NCBI RefSeq assembly: GCF_021608225.1
Contig: NZ_JAKIJS010000001.1
Coordinates: forward strand, 496,001 to 560,000
Direction: 5' to 3'
DNA: 64,000 nt
Origin: Pseudalkalibacillus berkeleyi
GTDB taxonomy: Bacteria; Bacillota; Bacilli; Bacillales; Fictibacillaceae
Within the stretch, counting starts at the first letter, position 1; every line of letters begins with the position of its first letter. Shown here one piece after another: positions 947 through 43,886 of the stretch. A model generated the notes under the pieces. That model did not search any database, was not told the DNA's origin, and saw nothing but the letters and a program-made list of their open reading frames with translations. A program made the translations under genes and the position numbers.

Positions 947-2095
947 TTATCTTGTCGCTGCGTACACATCGATTACGCCGTTACCATAATAGAAAGAATC
1001 TCCAAGTGGTATGGCGGTATCATTGAGTTTTTGACGAACATCAACATTAGATAACCCTGGGTTCCCTGCAATGATTAGAGCAGCTGCTCCAGCCACGTGA
1101 GGGGAAGCCATAGACGTTCCATTATAGCTGTCGTAGCTATTACCAGGAACGGAGCTTAATATGTTAACACCTGGTGCCATTACTTCAAGCTCAGATCCTA
1201 CGCTTGAGAACGATGCACGGTTATTGCTTGAATCTACCGCACCAACTGCCATTACAGAATCATACTTTGCTGGATATCCGATTGTGTTCTTTTTGCCTCT
1301 TGTTCCAGAATTTCCAGCTGCCGCAACAACTAACACCCCTGCGTTGTAGGCATTGTCATTAGCATCTTTAAGTGCAGTAGAACCGGAGCTACCACCTAAA
1401 CTCATATTGATTACATCCATGTTGTTGGCAACTGCCCACTCGATTCCTTGTATGATTCCGCTGTATGTTCCGCTACCAGAACTGTCTAATACTTTTACAG
1501 CATATAGACTTGCTGAATGCGCAACACCAATCACGCCAACGGAGTTATTTAGTCCGGCAACTGTTCCTGCAACGTGGGTACCATGGCCATTGCCGTCTGA
1601 AAAGGCATCAGGCTCACTAGAAACGAAGCTCGCGCCACCACTCACGTTAAGGTCTTCGTGGCTAGCGTCGATTCCTGTATCTAAAACAGCAACTTTAACA
1701 CCAGAGCCAGTGTTTCCAGTCGCATGAACTTGATCTGCGTTTATGTGGGGAATGCCCCATGGTGTTGTTTGTCCAATCGCATATGCCATTTGGTCTTCTT
1801 CTACATAAGACACATTAGGGTTCTTCTTAAGAGCCTCCGCTGCTTTTTCGGGCAAGGAAATAAGCATAGTATCCATGAATTTATACTGATGCTTAACCTG
1901 TCCTCCTAATTTTTTTACGTTATTAATCTGAGCTGTTTTGATATTTGATTTAAAACCAACGAGGAAGTCTTTCGGTCCGTTGTCCACCGATGCAGCAGAT
2001 GCAGACGGTGCAGAGAAATGTAAGTTTCCAACCAATAAGGATAGAACTAAAGCTAAGCTAAACACAGCACTTAATGTTCTTAATATCGCTTTCAT
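947..2095 (-). CDS. aprE: Secreted subtilisin-family alkaline serine protease
   Basis: 382 residues, start at 2095 because GGAGGAAAAG precedes it; an upstream in-frame start at 2137 lacks this. Order: signal peptide with AXA-type site (residues 1 to about 34, ending SASA), inhibitor_I9 propeptide (about 42-105), then the S8 domain. The mature part probably begins near residue 106-110, as the following [14 protein letters not shown] matches mature subtilisin N-termini. The catalytic triad is visible as Asp139 (LDTGID), His171 (GHGTHVAGT) and Ser328 (GTSMASPH), with oxyanion Asn262 (AAGNSGT). The domain is complete and should be an active extracellular protease made in stationary phase. The symbol reflects family resemblance; orthology to B. 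subtilis aprE is not proven. Confidence 0.93.
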
Positions 2096-2460
2096 TTCTT
2101 TTCCTCCATTCGTGATTTTATAACTTATAACAATCAAACTATGTGCTCATGGTGCTCAGGTCCCGGGCCCGAATATGTATGTCAGAAAAGTAAGACTATT
2201 ATAAATTTAATGGTAACATGAACCTAAAGTTGACAGTATTGGGAAATATGTGGTTACGAATAGAGTCTAAGTAGCTAAAAAAACACATGATTTTCCCAAT
2301 CAACAAGCTATTAAAATAGTGTTACAATAAAAGTTTTAGATTAAAAAACAGTGTTGATATAACAAACGTAGCAACAAACACACGATAGTATCCTTTAACA
2401 TCGTCCCAAAGTTGGAGGGAATTGAATTTTCAATCGATAATTTTGCGAAAGTAATAAAAA
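2096..2460. other. Protease upstream region, no gene
   Basis: No credible gene. On the minus strand a TATAAT-like hexamer lies at 2203-2198, about 100 bases before the protease start, but without a convincing -35 box; stationary-phase control by activators would fit. A GC-rich palindromic patch (CCCGGGCCC, about 2162-2170) interrupts otherwise AT-rich DNA. Nothing else stands out. Confidence 0.3.
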
Positions 2461-37579: not shown

Positions 37580-38935
37580 ATGGAAGGTTTTGGACTCATT
37601 CTTATCATTGCATTAGGGGTACTGTTTGTCATATTTGCGACAGCTAAATTAAAAATCCATCCGTTTCTTTCATTATTAATTGCAGCATTTGCGATGGGCA
37701 TCTTAGCAGGACTGCCATTAACGGATGTGGTGGAAGCGGTCAATTCAGGATTCGGTGGATTAATGGGCGGTATCGGACTCGTGATCGTGTTTGGAACGAT
37801 TATCGGCGTTATTTTAGAGCGATCAGGTGCTGCTCTCCGTATGGCGGAGCGAGTTTTACGATTAGTCGGTGAAAAGCGACCACAGCTAGCAATGAGTTTA
37901 ATCGGAGCGATTGTTAGTGTGCCAGTTTTCTGTGACTCAGGTTATGTCATTTTATCATCGTTGAAAAAGTCGATCGCGAAACGGGCCAAAGTTGGGGTTG
38001 CATCGATGGCGGTAGCGCTCTCAACTGGACTATTTGCAACACATACATTAGTACCGCCAACACCAGGACCGATTGCAGCAGCAGGTAACATTGGTGCGGA
38101 GAATTATCTCGGAGTTATTATTCTTGTCGGTATCGTTGTTGCTATTCCTACAATCATCGCAGGCTACATTTGGGCAATGAAAGTGGGTACGAAGATCAAG
38201 GTCGTCGGAGAAGATGAGCTGGTATATGACCATGAGGAAATGACGAAGCAATTCGGTGAAATGCCTTCAACATTTAAATCATTTGCACCGATCATGGTGC
38301 CAATTATTTTGATCGGACTAGGCTCTGTCGTAACATTTGCAGGTTGGGAAGGTAAGTTCTTCGAAGTTCTACTATTCTTAGGTTCTCCTGTTGTCGCTTT
38401 ATTGATTGGTATTATGTTTGCGTTTACATTGCTTCCGAAGTTGGATGAAGAAACGCTGACACAATGGATTGGCCACGGAATTAAAGACGCTGCACCGATT
38501 TTGTTGATCACGGGTGCAGGTGGTGCGTTCGGTTCTGTTATCAAGGCGACACCTGTAGCAGAATTTATCCAAGGATTCGGAGATAGTAGTTTAATAGGGG
38601 GCGCATTTTTCCTACTCATTCCGTTCTTTATCGCAGCCGCTTTAAAAACTGCGCAAGGTTCTTCGACGGCAGCCATTGTCATTACGTCGTCATTGATTGC
38701 ACCTTTACTAGGTCAAGTCGGCATTGAAGGTGCATTACCACTTGCACTAGTCGTCATGGCAGTCGGAGCTGGCGCAATGGTTGTATCGCATGTAAACGAC
38801 AGCTACTTCTGGGTTGTGAAGGAGTTCAGCGGAATGACCGTTACAGATGCATATAAAGGACAAACAGCAGCGACTCTCGTTCAAGGTATCGTTGCGATCT
38901 CAGTTACACTACTCTTATGGCTTATATTTGTATAA
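37580..38935 (+). CDS. GntP-family permease (glycerate/gluconate uptake)
   Basis: 451 residues, about 12 membrane segments, with GntP motifs (PVFCDSGYVILSSLKKSIAK, TLVPPTPGPIAAAGNIGA, AALKTAQGSSTAAIVITSS, VSHVNDSYFWVVKEFSGM). A proton symporter for small hydroxy-acids. Glycerate is inferred from the neighbours glxK and the CdaR-like gene; gluconate is the classical substrate of the family. Confidence 0.92.
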   Translation: MEGFGLILIIALGVLFVIFATAKLKIHPFLSLLIAAFAMGILAGLPLTDVVEAVNSGFGGLMGGIGLVIVFGTIIGVILERSGAALRMAERVLRLVGEKRPQLAMSLIGAIVSVPVFCDSGYVILSSLKKSIAKRAKVGVASMAVALSTGLFATHTLVPPTPGPIAAAGNIGAENYLGVIILVGIVVAIPTIIAGYIWAMKVGTKIKVVGEDELVYDHEEMTKQFGEMPSTFKSFAPIMVPIILIGLGSVVTFAGWEGKFFEVLLFLGSPVVALLIGIMFAFTLLPKLDEETLTQWIGHGIKDAAPILLITGAGGAFGSVIKATPVAEFIQGFGDSSLIGGAFFLLIPFFIAAALKTAQGSSTAAIVITSSLIAPLLGQVGIEGALPLALVVMAVGAGAMVVSHVNDSYFWVVKEFSGMTVTDAYKGQTAATLVQGIVAISVTLLLWLIFV

Positions 38936-38943
38936 AGGTGAAG

Positions 38944-38976
38944 AAGGTTTCGGCATAGTGTCCGAAACCTTTATTT
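38944..38976 (+). terminator. Terminator of the glycerate operon
   Basis: AAGGTTTCGG and CCGAAACCTT (38944-38953, 38962-38971) form a 10-bp stem with T-rich DNA after it. Confidence 0.85.
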
Positions 38977-39139
38977 TGAAAGTGAAAGCATGATGTTAAG
39001 TTAAATGTTCAAGTTGCTGTAGTCACTTCCTCTAAATTGTAAACTGAAGAACATCCTCGGAGATTATGTACGTGGAGTTTTGTTAGAAAAGCAAATTGAG
39101 AAAGCGGACGCTTATTCGTTTCTTGTTATATTAGACTAT

Positions 39140-40147
39140 TTAGGCTCGCACCTTAATGGGCGCGAAATCTTCTTTTGCTGGTGTCCGTTTTGTTTTAGCT
39201 TTTGAATTCTTATTTTGGATTACTAGAGGATGTTCTAAACTCTGTTTGAAACCTTCCAAAATTAAGTTTAAAGATAAAATAGTGATTGAAAACATCAATA
39301 ATGGTGCCAATGGAATCCAAGGAGCTACCCATAGATATTTATAAGTACTCCCAATCATACCTGACCATTCACTAGTGATTGAGATGTATACGTGTACTCC
39401 TTGTGTGAATTCAGATGTGCGTGCACCACCGAATAGTATATTTAATAATCCTAAGTGAACTAAAAGGATTAAAACCTGAATGATTTGCTGGGTAAAATGA
39501 ATCCAAAACTTAGGTTTTAAAAAGGGCAGAACATGTTTTAAGTAAAGCTCCCATCGATTAGCTCCCATAATTTTAGAAGCATCAATAAAATCATTTTGAA
39601 ATATTATTTTCATCTCATTACTTAATAATGTAACTAGTGTCGGTATGGCAACCAATGTCAATATGATAACTTCAAAATAAACCCGATCCCAAAAGGAATA
39701 CTCAAATCCTCCTAATGCTCCTTCTATTAACACAGGACTTAGAATGAAGAATGTAAGCAGTGAAATAGGGACATAATGGAAGGCTTCGGTTACCCTATTT
39801 ATATACCTATTCAATACCGGTAAGTAACTTTCAAGAATAAAGCTTAAAAAAACACTCAAAAACAATCTGAAGGCAGCAACTAGGATTGCAATACCAATTG
39901 TATATTTTGCACCTTTTATTAAAGAATGAAATATTTCTTTCCCTACCATGTCAGTCCCGAATGGTGGAACATTTAATGGGGAGTGGGGAGCTGAACGAAT
40001 TGCATTTCCATTATCATCATAAATTACAGATGTTTGAGGAATACTTCCATCTCCTAATATACTAAAAGAAAAACTAGCTACAATAAGGAGGAGTATAAAA
40101 AGAAACCCCATTAAGAATTTTGGATTTTTAATTAAACGTACTATCAT
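39140..40147 (-). CDS. Opp/Dpp C-like ABC permease of the AT-rich island
   Basis: 335 residues, one N-terminal membrane segment, a periplasm-type loop (GNAIRSAPHSPLNVPPFGTDMVGKEIF) and five more segments with an EAA loop (IDASKIMGANRWELYLKHVLP). This is the OppC/DppC permease type. The stop of the partner gene overlaps its start (ATGA). There is no ATPase or peptide-binding gene in the cluster. Base composition is more AT-rich than the flanking genes, suggesting transfer. Confidence 0.8.
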   Translation of the reverse strand: MIVRLIKNPKFLMGFLFILLLIVASFSFSILGDGSIPQTSVIYDDNGNAIRSAPHSPLNVPPFGTDMVGKEIFHSLIKGAKYTIGIAILVAAFRLFLSVFLSFILESYLPVLNRYINRVTEAFHYVPISLLTFFILSPVLIEGALGGFEYSFWDRVYFEVIILTLVAIPTLVTLLSNEMKIIFQNDFIDASKIMGANRWELYLKHVLPFLKPKFWIHFTQQIIQVLILLVHLGLLNILFGGARTSEFTQGVHVYISITSEWSGMIGSTYKYLWVAPWIPLAPLLMFSITILSLNLILEGFKQSLEHPLVIQNKNSKAKTKRTPAKEDFAPIKVRA

Positions 40148-41010
40148 TCAATTTCCTCCAAATTTGGATCCAGTTTATGAAGAACTATCTTTCCAATTGA
40201 AAAAAACATCCATATTGGTAAAAAGAATAAGAAAATTCCAATGGTAAAAATATCAGTAGATTTATGATTCATTAGGAATTGTATTAATCCGTTTGTTCCG
40301 AATGTAAACTCTACAATTAATAAATTTGAGAGCATGAACCAAAGTATAAATTTTGTATTAAAAAAAATACTGATAAGCGTGTTTCTGCTTATATGTTTAA
40401 AAAGAATATAAATCTCAGATAATCCTTTCCCCCTTGCTAGTTCTACATAGGGAAACTGATATTCAGATTCGAATTCATTAATAGTGAATTTATAAATAAA
40501 TATTGTAGGTAATATAGATAATGCAAGGATAGGCAGTACATATGGGGTGTCCTCTTTGTAAGAAGCAATATCAAAAAATAAAATACCAGTCTGTTTATAA
40601 ATAGTTATTACCATTAATTGAAAAACTGCGATAAATAATAGGTCTGGAATTGATTCCAATAAGTTAAGTGTTCGTTTGATAATTCTTACAATTTTAGAAG
40701 AAAGAAGCATTGTTATAAAACCAATTCCGATAGCTGTAAAAAATGAAAGGATAAAAGAAATGAATAGCACAGTGATTGAGTAAATCCACGGGCTAATGAT
40801 TCTTGGGAATACTGGACGATCAATCCCGTTTAAATAATAGGTAAATGAATCACGAGTAAATAAGTTCATTAATATTCCTAGCAAACTTTTCAAATAGGCA
40901 GCTATGTCTAGAGAAATCCCTTTGAATAAAGCAGGGAGGGACCCTACCAACCAGACACCTATTAATAAGAGCATCAAATTGAATAAATATTTTTCAAGAT
41001 GTAGTTTCAT
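40144..41010 (-). CDS. Opp/Dpp B-like ABC permease of the AT-rich island
   Basis: 288 residues, six membrane segments. The EAA loop reads VELARGKGLSEIYILFKHISRN, close to OppB/DppB permeases. The large loop after the first segment is shorter than usual for OppB. Translationally coupled to the OppC-like gene and 37 bases after the lipoprotein gene. Likely a channel for a small peptide or metal chelate, energised by an ATPase from elsewhere. Confidence 0.78.
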   Translation of the reverse strand: MKLHLEKYLFNLMLLLIGVWLVGSLPALFKGISLDIAAYLKSLLGILMNLFTRDSFTYYLNGIDRPVFPRIISPWIYSITVLFISFILSFFTAIGIGFITMLLSSKIVRIIKRTLNLLESIPDLLFIAVFQLMVITIYKQTGILFFDIASYKEDTPYVLPILALSILPTIFIYKFTINEFESEYQFPYVELARGKGLSEIYILFKHISRNTLISIFFNTKFILWFMLSNLLIVEFTFGTNGLIQFLMNHKSTDIFTIGIFLFFLPIWMFFSIGKIVLHKLDPNLEEIE

Positions 41011-41047
41011 AGCAATCCCTCCATTACGAAAAAGCAGAAAAATTTTA

Positions 41048-41530
41048 TTAGTTGAACGCTTCCGAAGTTGCTATAAAAGCAAGAATAGTACTGACTTCTT
41101 CCCCGTCTTCACTTGTACATGTTTCCAGATATACCATGGGTCCTCTCTGGGAGATATATCCGCAGCTATACGTCCCTTTGGGTGACTGTTTATAGCCACC
41201 ATAATTATTTTCAAACTTGACCTTTTCCTTCTCATAGCTGATTTTATTTTCATAATGGTTTCCGTTCTTCTCGAAAATGGAAATCGTTACTGAATCTTCT
41301 TCTTTTGCCTCTACACTCTTAAGAAGTTCTTTCACCTTTTCAATTCCTTTAACTTCTAAATTTCCTTGTACAATTTCATCAAAGCTTTCACCTTTATGTA
41401 TAACGACTACATTTCCATTCTTTTCAGCCTTTTCTGGTGTATAATCATTACTCTCCTCTTCGTTTGTTGGTGTATTGGAACAAGCTGCGAGTAAACAAAG
41501 AACCATGACCATTAACTTAAACTTTTTCAT
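41048..41530 (-). CDS. Small lipoprotein next to the HTH-TPR regulator
   Basis: 160 residues with a lipoprotein signal peptide (basic MKKFK, hydrophobic core, lipobox LLAAC, Cys17). The mature part is polar and contains SPKGTYSCGYISQRG, resembling Bacillus lipoproteins of the DUF4362 type as I remember them; function unknown. A C-terminal Cys pair (SCG, LETC) could form a disulfide. AGGGGG precedes the ATG. It is too small to be an Opp-type peptide binder. Confidence 0.72.
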   Translation of the reverse strand: MKKFKLMVMVLCLLAACSNTPTNEEESNDYTPEKAEKNGNVVVIHKGESFDEIVQGNLEVKGIEKVKELLKSVEAKEEDSVTISIFEKNGNHYENKISYEKEKVKFENNYGGYKQSPKGTYSCGYISQRGPMVYLETCTSEDGEEVSTILAFIATSEAFN

Positions 41531-41562
41531 AATAACCCCCTAGTTTTTGATGACTATCATAT

Positions 41563-41610
41563 TTAATAATTAATTAAAAGATTACGATAGGTTGCGGTTC
41601 TAAAACTCAT
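41563..41610 (-). CDS. Candidate 15-residue peptide ORF after the regulator
   Basis: Starting 15 bases after the regulator stop: AGGAGG, three bases, then ATG and 14 further codons (MSFRTATYRNLLINY) to TAA. The SD is a perfect consensus but its spacing is short. Regulators of the RRNPP group are usually followed by the gene of their cognate signal peptide, which motivates this call. There is no secretion signal, so it would need a leaderless exporter, or it may be only a leader peptide of the lipoprotein gene. Confidence 0.3.
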   Translation of the reverse strand: MSFRTATYRNLLINY

Positions 41611-41624
41611 GTTCCTCCTAAATA

Positions 41625-42866
41625 TTAGATTATATTATTTTTTCTTAGCTCATTAGCTTCAGAAAAGTAATAACTAGATTTCTTATATTGTTTTTTTTCT
41701 TTATAATAATTAGCAAGTATCTCTGAACACTCACATAAATTTACCCAATCATGATTCTCATAAAAGTAAGGTATAGCTTCCTTTTCGAGATAATCAACCA
41801 ATATCGGGTTTTCAGTTATTTGGTATTGGAGTATTTTTAGTTTAATAAAGTCTTTGAGATCAAATTCTATACCGAACTCTAGTCCCCTTTTTATCCACTC
41901 AATAGCAATAACATGTTTATTCAACTGTTTATACTCATTAGCAATATGATAAATTGTGTTCAAGTAATTCTTTATCTCATATTTTTGTTTAATTGATAAA
42001 CTCCTCTTATAGTTTACAATTGCAGCATCATGCCTTTTTTGTACACTATTTATGTAACCGATATTGTGAAATATATAAGCTTTTTTCATTTCAAGATTTA
42101 ATCTATCCGCTAATAAGAGTGCATTTCTAAACTGATGTTCAGCTTCATCAAAATTTGATAAGCGATTGTTATTTATTCCAATAATAATCTGGCAGTCAAT
42201 ACTTCTCTCAACATTCCCAGCTTTACTGAATAATGTTAATGCCTCCTCTGCGTAGGTCTTGGCAAAAGTCACATGAAATAATTGGCTATGTACTAAGGCA
42301 AGGTGATAATTAAGAAAATCCTTTTCAATGTTTGATTCTTGATAATCCAATGCTTGGTTAAAATACTTTAAAGACAAACGGTATTTATGTGTTAAATAAT
42401 AGTAGATTCCTAAACCATATAAATAATAATAATTCATAGTATTAGAAAAGAGGTTTCGAACTGAATCTAACTCATCGAGAATTTCTTCCGCTTTCTTTGT
42501 GTTTTGTTGAACAAGCCAATACTTGAGGTTGAAAATTGAATAGTATAATTTTAAATCAATACTATCAAAAGTTTGTATTTTCTGTTTTAAATATTTTTTT
42601 TGAATTTTAGAGTCTTCAATATCGCCTGATCTTAATGTGTTGTACCATTCGAATAATTCTCTTCTGAGTTTATCAATTGAAACCTCATCTTCAATCATTA
42701 GTACTACTTCTAATCTCTCCATTAGTAAATTTAAAATTTCTTTGCTGGGTTCCAACTTGTTATTTTCCACTTTACTAAGGTAGGAAATTGAACAAATACC
42801 ATCTGCTAATTCATCCTGGGTAAAATTACGTATACGTCTGTAATATAAAATCTTTTCACCAATCAT
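41625..42866 (-). CDS. RRNPP-like HTH-TPR regulator
   Basis: 413 residues. N-terminal Xre-type helix-turn-helix (about residues 3-60: KILYYRRIRNFTQDELADGI, SISYLSKVENNKLEPS), then a long all-helical array of TPR-like repeats (for example YYYLYGLGIYYYLTHKYRLSLKYF, KAYIFHNIGYINSVQKRHDAAI, YHIANEYKQLNKHVIAIEW). This is the architecture of PlcR, NprR, PrgX and AimR, which bind imported peptides. AACGGAGG precedes the ATG. Upstream DNA has nested inverted repeats. No phage genes lie nearby, so an AimR role is unlikely. Confidence 0.82.
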   Translation of the reverse strand: MIGEKILYYRRIRNFTQDELADGICSISYLSKVENNKLEPSKEILNLLMERLEVVLMIEDEVSIDKLRRELFEWYNTLRSGDIEDSKIQKKYLKQKIQTFDSIDLKLYYSIFNLKYWLVQQNTKKAEEILDELDSVRNLFSNTMNYYYLYGLGIYYYLTHKYRLSLKYFNQALDYQESNIEKDFLNYHLALVHSQLFHVTFAKTYAEEALTLFSKAGNVERSIDCQIIIGINNNRLSNFDEAEHQFRNALLLADRLNLEMKKAYIFHNIGYINSVQKRHDAAIVNYKRSLSIKQKYEIKNYLNTIYHIANEYKQLNKHVIAIEWIKRGLEFGIEFDLKDFIKLKILQYQITENPILVDYLEKEAIPYFYENHDWVNLCECSEILANYYKEKKQYKKSSYYFSEANELRKNNII

Positions 42867-42887
42867 AAATCAAATCCTCCGTTTTGG

Positions 42888-42953
42888 GTATTGAGAAAAA
42901 AAAGATAAATTCATTGAATTATTGTCAATTTTTTACGACAACTTTCTCAATAC
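42888..42953 (-). promoter_or_regulatory. Promoter of the regulator with nested inverted repeats
   Basis: An outer 11-bp perfect inverted repeat GTATTGAGAAA (42888-42898) / TTTCTCAATAC (42943-42953) encloses an inner one TTGTC (42922-42926) / GACAA (42937-42941). On the minus strand the inner repeat overlaps a TTGACA -35 box (42927-42922), with TATCTT 15 bases on. This suggests repressor or activator binding at the regulator's own promoter. Confidence 0.55.
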
Positions 42954-43159
42954 AAGCAAATTATAACATACATAAATGTTTAATTATGGAAGGTGATTTT
43001 GTGAATTAAAGGGATTCAGTCAAGTGGGGGACCGCAGAGGTGCCAGTTTATGTCTGCTGGAAACATTCAAAATGTTCTAGACAGACCTAAGTTAGAGGAG
43101 CAATTGCTATGATTTCTGAAAAAGAATGGTGAGTTAAAGAATGAAAAAAATAATGAAAA
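42954..43159. other. Gene-free stretch with tiny ORFs
   Basis: No gene supported. The plus strand holds GGAAGGTGATTTTGTG followed at once by AATTAA, i.e. a good start signal with an immediate stop. Two tiny frames overlap by ATGA at 43110 (one starting at 43050 and ending EEQLL, then MISEKEW behind AGAGGAG). These look like remains of a decayed gene start rather than functional genes. Confidence 0.3.
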
Positions 43160-43195
43160 CTCACACAACAGTATAGACCGAAGTGTGAGCTTTCT
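43160..43195 (-). terminator. Terminator of the racemase gene
   Basis: CTCACAC (43160-43166) and GTGTGAG (43183-43189) pair; on the minus strand TTTTC and a T-rich tract follow. Confidence 0.75.
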
Positions 43196-43196
43196 A

Positions 43197-43886
43197 TTAT
43201 TCTAATGAATTATTCACGGCCTCAACGGCATGAATCCGAGCGGTGTCATAGGTGGGGACTTCGACGTCTTCTGGTTTGATGAGTAATCCGATTTCCGTAC
43301 AGCCGAGTATGATACCTTGAGCGCCATTGTCGATCAGTTTATGGATAATTTGTTTGAAATTTTCCTTTGATGAAGCATTAATGGTTCCTTGGCATAATTC
43401 AGCATAGATGACGGAATGGATGATGTTTCGGTCTTCGGCATCTGGTACAACCACTTCGAGACCGTTCTTCTCCAGTCTCGTTTTGTAGAAATCTTGTTCC
43501 ATCGTATATTTTGTCCCGAGCAGACCAACTTTTTTTACTGAGTCTCTATGGATTTGAGCGGTGGTTGCGTCTGCAATATGTAGAACTGGAATGTCTACGT
43601 TATCTTCAATTTGATCGACGACTTTGTGCATCGTATTCGTGCATATCACGATGAAGTCTGCACCACCTTTTTGTAGAGACTGACCAACCTCAGCGAGAGC
43701 TTCACCAGCTTTTCCCCATTCTCCTTGCGCTTGATATCGCTGGTTTTCTGCAAAATCTACACTATACAACAAGCATTTTGCGGAGTGGAAGTCACCTAAT
43801 CGTCGCTTTATCTCTTCGTTTATGATCCGGTAATACTCCGCTGAAGATTCCCAGCTCATGCCACCAATCAAGCCGATCGTTTTCAT
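43197..43886 (-). CDS. Aspartate/glutamate racemase family protein
   Basis: 229 residues with both catalytic cysteines: ICTNTMHK (about residue 82) and LGCTEIGLL (about residue 195), plus the N-terminal IGLIGGMSWESSAEYY signature of aspartate racemases (YgeA/RacX type). It interconverts L- and D-amino acids without cofactor. In Bacillus such D-amino acids enter the wall or act on biofilms. GGAGGGA precedes the ATG. Precise substrate unknown. Confidence 0.88.
   Translation of the reverse strand: MKTIGLIGGMSWESSAEYYRIINEEIKRRLGDFHSAKCLLYSVDFAENQRYQAQGEWGKAGEALAEVGQSLQKGGADFIVICTNTMHKVVDQIEDNVDIPVLHIADATTAQIHRDSVKKVGLLGTKYTMEQDFYKTRLEKNGLEVVVPDAEDRNIIHSVIYAELCQGTINASSKENFKQIIHKLIDNGAQGIILGCTEIGLLIKPEDVEVPTYDTARIHAVEAVNNSLE

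Follow-up and report, generated by a model that had tools for sequence, protein, structure and literature searches.

A probably inserted locus of Pseudalkalibacillus berkeleyi joins an NprR-like receptor lacking a recognisable pheromone gene to an OppBC-like permease pair lacking a linked ATPase

We describe a block of ~4.2 kb in the genome of Pseudalkalibacillus berkeleyi (assembly GCF_021608225.1, contig NZ_JAKIJS010000001.1), in which a gene for an NprR-like receptor of the RRNPP class lies upstream of genes for a lipoprotein and an OppB/OppC-like permease pair. The window, that is the whole stretch of DNA that was analysed, covers 64,000 nucleotides (contig positions 496,001-560,000), and coordinates are those of the window unless a locus handle precedes them. 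The four genes lie on the minus strand and are, with their common orientation, as originally predicted (Table 1). A receptor without its pheromone next to a channel without its motor suggests a switch that listens to imported peptides and not to itself. Our preferred reading, which we regard as about evenly balanced between right and wrong, is that an operon was inserted whose NprR-like receptor, once used for quorum sensing, now serves an ATPase-borrowing peptide channel and senses peptides that are not self-encoded; we prefer it because it is the most economical account using all the facts. RRNPP receptors are usually studied paired with their own pheromone and, if the reading is true, a receptor with a channel in place of a pheromone shows quorum sensing turning into peptide eavesdropping or nutrient sensing.

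Judged from its sequence and predicted structure, the receptor is an NprR-like RRNPP protein with an N-terminal helix-turn-helix (HTH) followed by a Rap-type tetratricopeptide repeat (TPR) domain. It matches Pfam HTH_3 and TPR, with a sub-threshold match to RapH_N, and a phmmer search of solved structures placed NprR and Rap chains on top. Structure prediction, proposed as a check with the original prediction, returned a confident AlphaFold2 model (built from 24 sequences; pLDDT 92.9) with the NprR fold, the best match being NprR 5dbk (Z 36.0, rmsd 3.4, 349/413 residues aligned over residues 59-409, 23% identity) and Rap proteins coming next. The earlier assignment to RRNPP-type HTH-TPR receptors therefore stands, and that to the PlcR/PrgX architecture gives way to NprR and Rap, which head both lists (affinity to PlcR and PrgX was judged from these Protein Data Bank sequence and fold lists, and absence from a list does not exclude it). 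Homologs are found at E 1e-15 in 34/34 genomes of the bacterial family, with 1 to 8 per genome and the best per genome 28-36% identical; distant homologs occur on 16 plasmid records (best row 30.6% identity). Decay of the window receptor was considered and rejected, as the 14/61 conserved positions at which it departs from the family match the counts seen in divergent members followed by a precursor gene (L104, 16; L235, 14; L236 and L237, 13 each).

Most receptor homologs are followed by a gene for a secreted-looking pheromone precursor, usually 10-24 nt 3' of the receptor stop codon; these precursors are often multi-copy, with motifs such as VDNNPGIKS, AHDDSPKP and AIDQTPEPTSNPS, and a D-x-x-P core is present in many. 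We examined 68 receptor loci, which are best matches, mostly viewed with flanks of 1.5 kb; the Rap-like L012 is one of them. A secreted-looking open reading frame (ORF; by our own rule, a basic start plus a hydrophobic core) starts within 150 nt downstream in 63 of the 68, a count that includes the window, by virtue of its lipoprotein, and the doubtful L232 (21 residues at +114). The five loci with no such ORF in this slot are L010, L234 and the Rossellomorea-group loci L327, L328 and L329. With the window lipoprotein set aside by hand, so that the window counts as pheromone-less, a pheromone gene accompanies 62/64 receptors not seen beside permeases (61 without L232) versus 0/4 permease-linked receptors. 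The Fisher p value is 1.8e-5, or 0.005 with the four linked cases counted as two lineages and L232 as lacking a gene, both being guides, because the rows share ancestry and the analysis set out from the window. No propeptide gene was found in the slot beside the window receptor (the rest of the genome was not searched for one), and the idea of a "self-contained" cassette is not supported, the slot being filled in nearly all unlinked relatives. What does stand there is a 15-codon ORF (MSFRTATYRNLLINY) with no signal sequence, which starts right after the receptor stop codon, where the precursors of relatives start, and which is the only one with a 6/6 Shine-Dalgarno match among seven short island ORFs (8-120 codons, at least 5/6). 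It may be what is left of a lost precursor gene, or it may encode a leaderless peptide.

Both permeases pass the BPD_transp_1 cut-off of 26.4 bits (Table 1); the NCBIfam Opp equivalog models score far below their cut-off (best 68 bits versus 350), and DppC chains were the only solved structures found by a sequence search with the OppC-like protein. Residues invariant in ten diverse members (OppB Y188, A192, K195, G196, H206, R209 and N210; OppC G195, H205 and P208) belong to the EAA coupling loop, which meets the ATPase. Set against Opp/Dpp importers, the pair has the two BPD_transp_1 permeases with conserved EAA-loop residues, and lacks OppD/OppF and OppA in its operon. No ATPase or binding-protein gene is present among the block ORFs, and a search with the genome's own Opp proteins found none within 4 kb of the block permeases, confirming that the pair stands without either. 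The same genome holds four Opp-type operons, each encoding a binding protein and one or more ATPases identified by motif. The coupling-loop residues are conserved, and borrowing of a housekeeping Opp ATPase, as originally proposed, is therefore plausible.

The permeases belong to a large Bacillales family, whose members are found at E 1e-15 in 34/34 genomes of the bacterial family, a loose limit that may catch ordinary Opp permeases, and at E 1e-48 in at least 51/397 genomes of the order, where only the best few candidates per genome were scored and tallies are lower bounds. A named genome collection gave 150 confirmed places, of which the best 80 were kept; hosts of the family include Rossellomorea, Pseudalkalibacillus, Fictibacillus, Halobacillus, Virgibacillus, Sediminibacillus and Geobacillus, among others. 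A first contig scan with the OppC protein alone as query gave no match. We compared the surroundings of 138 OppC genes, which were drawn from the best matches to the window permeases and not sampled at random; genes with the same last 250 residues were counted once, and a locus with two permease pairs was counted twice. An Opp-type ATPase lies within 5 kb of five (L045, L293, L294 and L304, with two ATPases each, and the unclear L063) and 133 have none; a binding protein (E < 1e-20) accompanies 0/138, a weak match near L256 having fallen to the stricter threshold. Over the same distance, 31 have a gene for an extracytoplasmic function (ECF)-type sigma factor, 15 an anti-sigma, 12 a window-type lipoprotein and four an RRNPP receptor (the window, L144, L299 and, ~4 kb away, L082). 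In a quick tree of 55 OppC proteins, 48/49 rows without a nearby ATPase group together (SH-like approximate likelihood ratio test 94) to the exclusion of both the genome's own four canonical systems and the ATPase-linked L045/L293; the remaining row, L297 on a short contig, falls outside. A widespread OppBC set without an ATPase is indicated, whose energy must come from elsewhere. ATPase-less OppBC pairs beside an ECF-type sigma, often with an anti-sigma, were seen at L043, L054, L055, L057-L061, L063, L068, L180, L184, L188 and L190, the L043 group having paired lipoprotein-like genes too. OppC genes of more than 600 residues make up 24/138, and seven of ~800 residues match both OppB and OppC, combining OppB-like and OppC-like parts in one protein (L049, L050, L052, L053, L064, L067 and L075).

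The receptor promoter carries a candidate operator (GTATTGAGAAA) that is a perfect 11-bp inverted repeat with a 44-nt gap, and 0/200 shuffles reach 11 bp (all operator shuffles were mononucleotide). Its core, TTGRGAAA-N-TTTCYCAA with a start-to-start distance of 51-53 nt, is present upstream of at least 50/68 receptor loci, window included, from six bacterial families, and core half-site pairs numbered 0 in 100 rounds of shuffles; the 50 are a lower bound, the start anchor having missed L012, which has a site, and are related rows and not 50 independent events. Searched genome-wide with exact half-sites only, the window variant TTGAGAAA-N40-47-TTTCTCAA has a single occurrence in the 3.5 Mb genome, at the receptor promoter (control 0). 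A G variant occurs seven times (control 0), each time with a 45-nt gap, including upstream of a paralogous receptor with a repeat precursor, of a Rap gene and of a subtilase gene in the window. These matches suggest a local operator private to the window receptor and different from the one that serves its paralog. The operator also offers a concrete handle for reading the regulons of NprR-like receptors from sequence.

An empty site is seen in a congener (G031, L212), where the racemase gene (77% identical) and gntP (91%) adjoin, 40 bp apart: window positions 38402-38976 and 43191-43698 align to L212 with no gap between the two alignments there, so that ~4.2 kb is present in the window only. 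Four further congeners with a racemase homolog (L213-L216) have no such block beside it, their flanks being rearranged. Among eight genomes of the genus an OppB >40% identical to that of the window occurs in the own genome only. Gain is favoured over loss in the congener because none of the seven congeners searched has such an OppB, and the empty site favours a horizontally acquired insertion. Base use differs from the flanks, as originally predicted: the four block genes have a GC content of 0.29-0.36 versus 0.44-0.45 in two flanking genes, and third-position GC of 0.26-0.33 versus 0.35-0.44 in five. As proof of transfer, low GC is weakened by the two receptor paralogs elsewhere in the same genome, which are about equally AT-rich (GC 0.27 and 0.31). 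Because these paralogs share the low GC, it is the empty site and not composition that supports insertion. The block permeases have a GC content of 0.29 and 0.34, and three other orphan permease pairs of the genome are higher (0.36-0.38). No integrase, recombinase or insertion sequence gene was recognised among the block ORFs, and no repeat >10 bp was common to the two border spacers compared.

The receptor-permease linkage recurs outside the genus. In Bacillus sp. MCCB 382 (L299/L327) a receptor of the same family lies 31 nt upstream of OppBC on the same strand, with no pheromone gene, and such a receptor-OppB-OppC triplet is present in 3/36 Rossellomorea-group genomes, L299 included. The other two triplet receptors are 57-58% identical to that of L299, and the listed genes outside the triplet differ between the three. 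The search for the same order in other genomes, suggested earlier as a check, thus found the receptor and permeases again, without a window-family lipoprotein between receptor and OppB. Identity between the window and L299 is 25% for the receptor, 33% for OppB and 39% for OppC. A single clade for the window and the Rossellomorea-group linked cases is rejected in both quick trees, which were made without bootstrap (receptor, p 0.0008, in a test run after the tree was seen and with long branches; OppC, p 7.6e-11), and two or more separate origins of the linkage are therefore most likely.

Table 1. Features of the block and its surroundings in window coordinates
Feature	Position	Strand	Basis or context
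Block (island), ~4.2 kb, between gntP and the Asp/Glu racemase gene	38977..43190		Empty site in congener L212
NprR-like HTH-TPR receptor, 413 aa	41625..42866	-	Pfam HTH_3 + TPR; phmmer to NprR/Rap chains; AlphaFold2 model
15-codon ORF MSFRTATYRNLLINY	41563..41610	-	AGGAGG 3 nt 5' of ATG; slot of relatives' pheromone precursor gene
Lipoprotein, 160 aa, LAAC lipobox (by eye)	41048..41530	-	Family related to DUF4362
OppB-like permease, 288 aa, without linked ATPase	40144..41010	-	PF00528, 42.6 bits; invariant coupling-loop residues
OppC-like permease, 335 aa, without linked ATPase	39140..40147	-	PF00528, 42.0 bits; 4-base overlap with OppB
Candidate operator, 11-bp perfect inverted repeat	42888..42953	-	Ends 21 nt 5' of receptor start codon

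Under our preferred reading, the receptor would bind the paired half-sites at its own promoter and so control the whole operon, and the OppBC pair would form a channel powered by OppDF ATPases from a housekeeping system. The peptide let in might be a signal of foreign origin, come from digestion or be encoded by the 15-codon ORF; lodged in the TPR groove of the receptor it would switch the operon, so that the channel would be made when its substrate is present. A broader claim may be formulated, namely that some quorum receptors independently swapped their pheromone gene for an ATPase-less channel, each becoming a heterologous peptide sensor that controls its own import gate, with the channel drawn from a large, apparently ATPase-borrowing OppBC family that stands under varied regulators (ECF sigma/anti-sigma, receptors) or beside lipoproteins. 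We hold this broader claim tentatively, and would sooner bet against it than for it.

Several findings weigh against the preferred reading. The linked cases are only four, in two lineages, one of which is the starting point. The operator was not found at 18/68 loci, among them L010, L234 and every one of the 14 loci examined in the Rossellomorea group, and co-regulation through it is therefore not a general feature. Of the three linked Rossellomorea-group loci, two have what by eye resembles a terminator hairpin between receptor and OppB, an argument against a single transcript at those loci. In the window block, promoter-like sites are no commoner than in shuffles (a consensus scan gave 21 sites, and shuffles averaged 21.3). 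The order-wide search, which scored the best few candidates per genome, gave nothing close to the window block (best OppB 48% identical), which leaves no means of gauging selection on the block as a unit. The original prediction had tied its cassette to receptors that occur with permeases and to permeases without an ATPase and binding protein of their own. The first tie is loose, since most related receptors are without permeases and 134/138 related OppC genes are without a receptor within 5 kb; the second holds, with the ATPase absent from 133/138 and the binding protein from 138/138. The combination is rare because most related receptors and permeases stand apart.

The main rival is a chance neighbourhood, in which a receptor that lost its pheromone gene came by coincidence to stand before an ordinary lipoprotein-OppBC unit, the two travelling together with no joint function. 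The mostly separate occurrence of receptors and permeases would be expected in that case, receptor homologs are common in the family, and lipoprotein and OppBC without a receptor are found elsewhere (9/12 lipoprotein-bearing OppC rows are in genus g2 of the same family, with L206 in addition). A second lineage with the same order and likewise no pheromone gene, and the restriction of the window operator variant to the promoter upstream of the block, argue against chance, as does, weakly, the finding of no minus-strand terminator-like site between the block genes, in a scan that missed an evident hairpin after gntP. On balance we consider chance unlikely, though the likeliest of the alternatives. 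Such a neighbourhood may be what is seen in Tuberibacillus calidus (L144, L247), where a Rap-like gene with a 48-aa precursor stands beside a lipoprotein and OppBC; we rejected it as a second cassette since in the closely related Caenibacillus (L206/L262) the lipoprotein and OppBC have no receptor nearby.

It is less probable again that the permease pair is not an importer but serves in the response to stress or antimicrobial peptides, as sensor, exporter or immunity factor, with the receptor as a peptide-triggered switch. The sigma-factor genes near related OppC genes point that way, an ECF sigma/anti-sigma setting being suggestive of envelope stress, as does the lack of a binding protein throughout the 138. 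The conserved Opp-type EAA-loop residues and the DppC importers among solved structures speak for import. A complete quorum unit, in which the 15-codon ORF would be a leaderless pheromone that leaves through a dedicated exporter and returns via OppBC, appears slightly more doubtful still. The ORF has the best Shine-Dalgarno match in the block and starts at the position of relatives' precursors; against this, the 3-nt spacing between Shine-Dalgarno and ATG is short, there is neither a signal sequence nor the D-x-x-P core of many relatives' precursors, the 31-nt gap of L299/L327 holds no such ORF, and a relic of a lost precursor gene accounts for the same facts. A pheromone cut from the lipoprotein signal peptide, as for enterococcal cCF10, is suggested by the position of the lipoprotein as the first secreted-looking product 3' of the receptor and by PrgX-type receptors, whose pheromones come from lipoprotein signal peptides (PMC7117660, in the part available), and is very improbable, since the three linked Rossellomorea-group loci show no such lipoprotein between receptor and OppB, family members stand without permease or receptor in other genomes, and the stretch DYTPE, which resembles the D-x-x-P core, is part of the domain, is conserved in lipoproteins that stand alone and was rejected as a pheromone source.

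The lipoprotein itself is a putative accessory and not a classical binding protein. Homologs 45-49% identical occur in at least eight genomes; the window protein does not match DUF4362 (PF14275, cut-off 25 bits), and of five homologs scanned L142 passes (26.8), L149 falls below (14.1) and three have no match. The window lipoprotein is confidently modelled (pLDDT 88.4) as a small alpha-beta domain with no clear structural match: Foldseek gave none at E 0.001, and in a second fold comparison the best was VIA (Z 4.3 over 55 residues), a result that says nothing on novelty. A role as a fixed permease subunit was rejected, as the lipoprotein occurs without a permease in L136-L142 and L145-L148. A same-genus homolog (L143:7964-8614, G029) is broken by a stop codon.

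The closest known receptor system is NprR-NprX of the Bacillus cereus group, which shares the HTH and Rap-like TPR receptor and resembles relatives of the window receptor in that a precursor gene follows the receptor gene immediately; the window locus differs in having a lipoprotein and permease pair in place of the pheromone gene. In the published texts as available to us, the closest ideas are PrgX with PrgZ (PMC7117660) and the two-permease-pair, one-ATPase-pair system of Borrelia (PMC5736914). PrgX/PrgZ of pCF10 and TraC of pAD1/pPD1 in Enterococcus likewise place a receptor system and its own import component on a mobile element and borrow the host Opp; unlike the window, which carries a channel with no ATPase and no binding protein, they carry a binding protein and borrow the whole Opp (PMC7117660). 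Borrelia burgdorferi Opp also has more OppBC pairs than ATPase pairs, with two heterodimeric permeases for one heterodimeric nucleotide-binding domain, but has five binding proteins, and no receptor gene is mentioned in the text available (PMC5736914). Npp and Opp of Bacillus thuringiensis are peptide permeases that import NprX, the signal of NprR; Npp did not transport peptides from other RRNPP systems, and in the accessible part of that paper they are described as permease systems, with receptor-gene linkage not stated (PMC10569065). We found no mention of receptor-permease linkage in the available text of three RRNPP papers (PMC9765709, PMC10075063 and PMC11343458). The open-access literature, as far as its text was available, yielded no description of such a locus, of orphan permeases or of a link between ECF sigma factors and oligopeptide permeases, nor did open-access sources yield one of a large ATPase-borrowing OppBC family under varied regulators.

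Further receptors and operators of the same genome deserve note. An NprR-like paralog (L048:6947-8754, C3) is followed by a 162-aa precursor with ~9 repeats of a IDQTPEPTSNPS-like motif; similar multi-copy precursors are found in other receptor relatives and some exceed 100 aa. RRNPP_detector, a published tool that searches for receptor-pheromone pairs, has a length limit of 100 aa according to the part of its description available (PMC10075063). Another pheromone-less NprR-like paralog (L349:6632-10673, C5) is followed by two genes that by eye resemble major facilitator superfamily transporters. In the window, a paralog-type operator, TTGGGAAA-N45-TTTCCCAA (2239-2299), lies 101 nt upstream of the listed start of the subtilase gene (947-2137, minus strand), whose product has a signal-like N-terminus; NprR has a protease target, which a subtilase with a paralog-type operator recalls. 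Two tandem paralog-type operators stand upstream of an FdhD-family gene (L353:1501-1822, C1:2241606-2241927 of the same genome).

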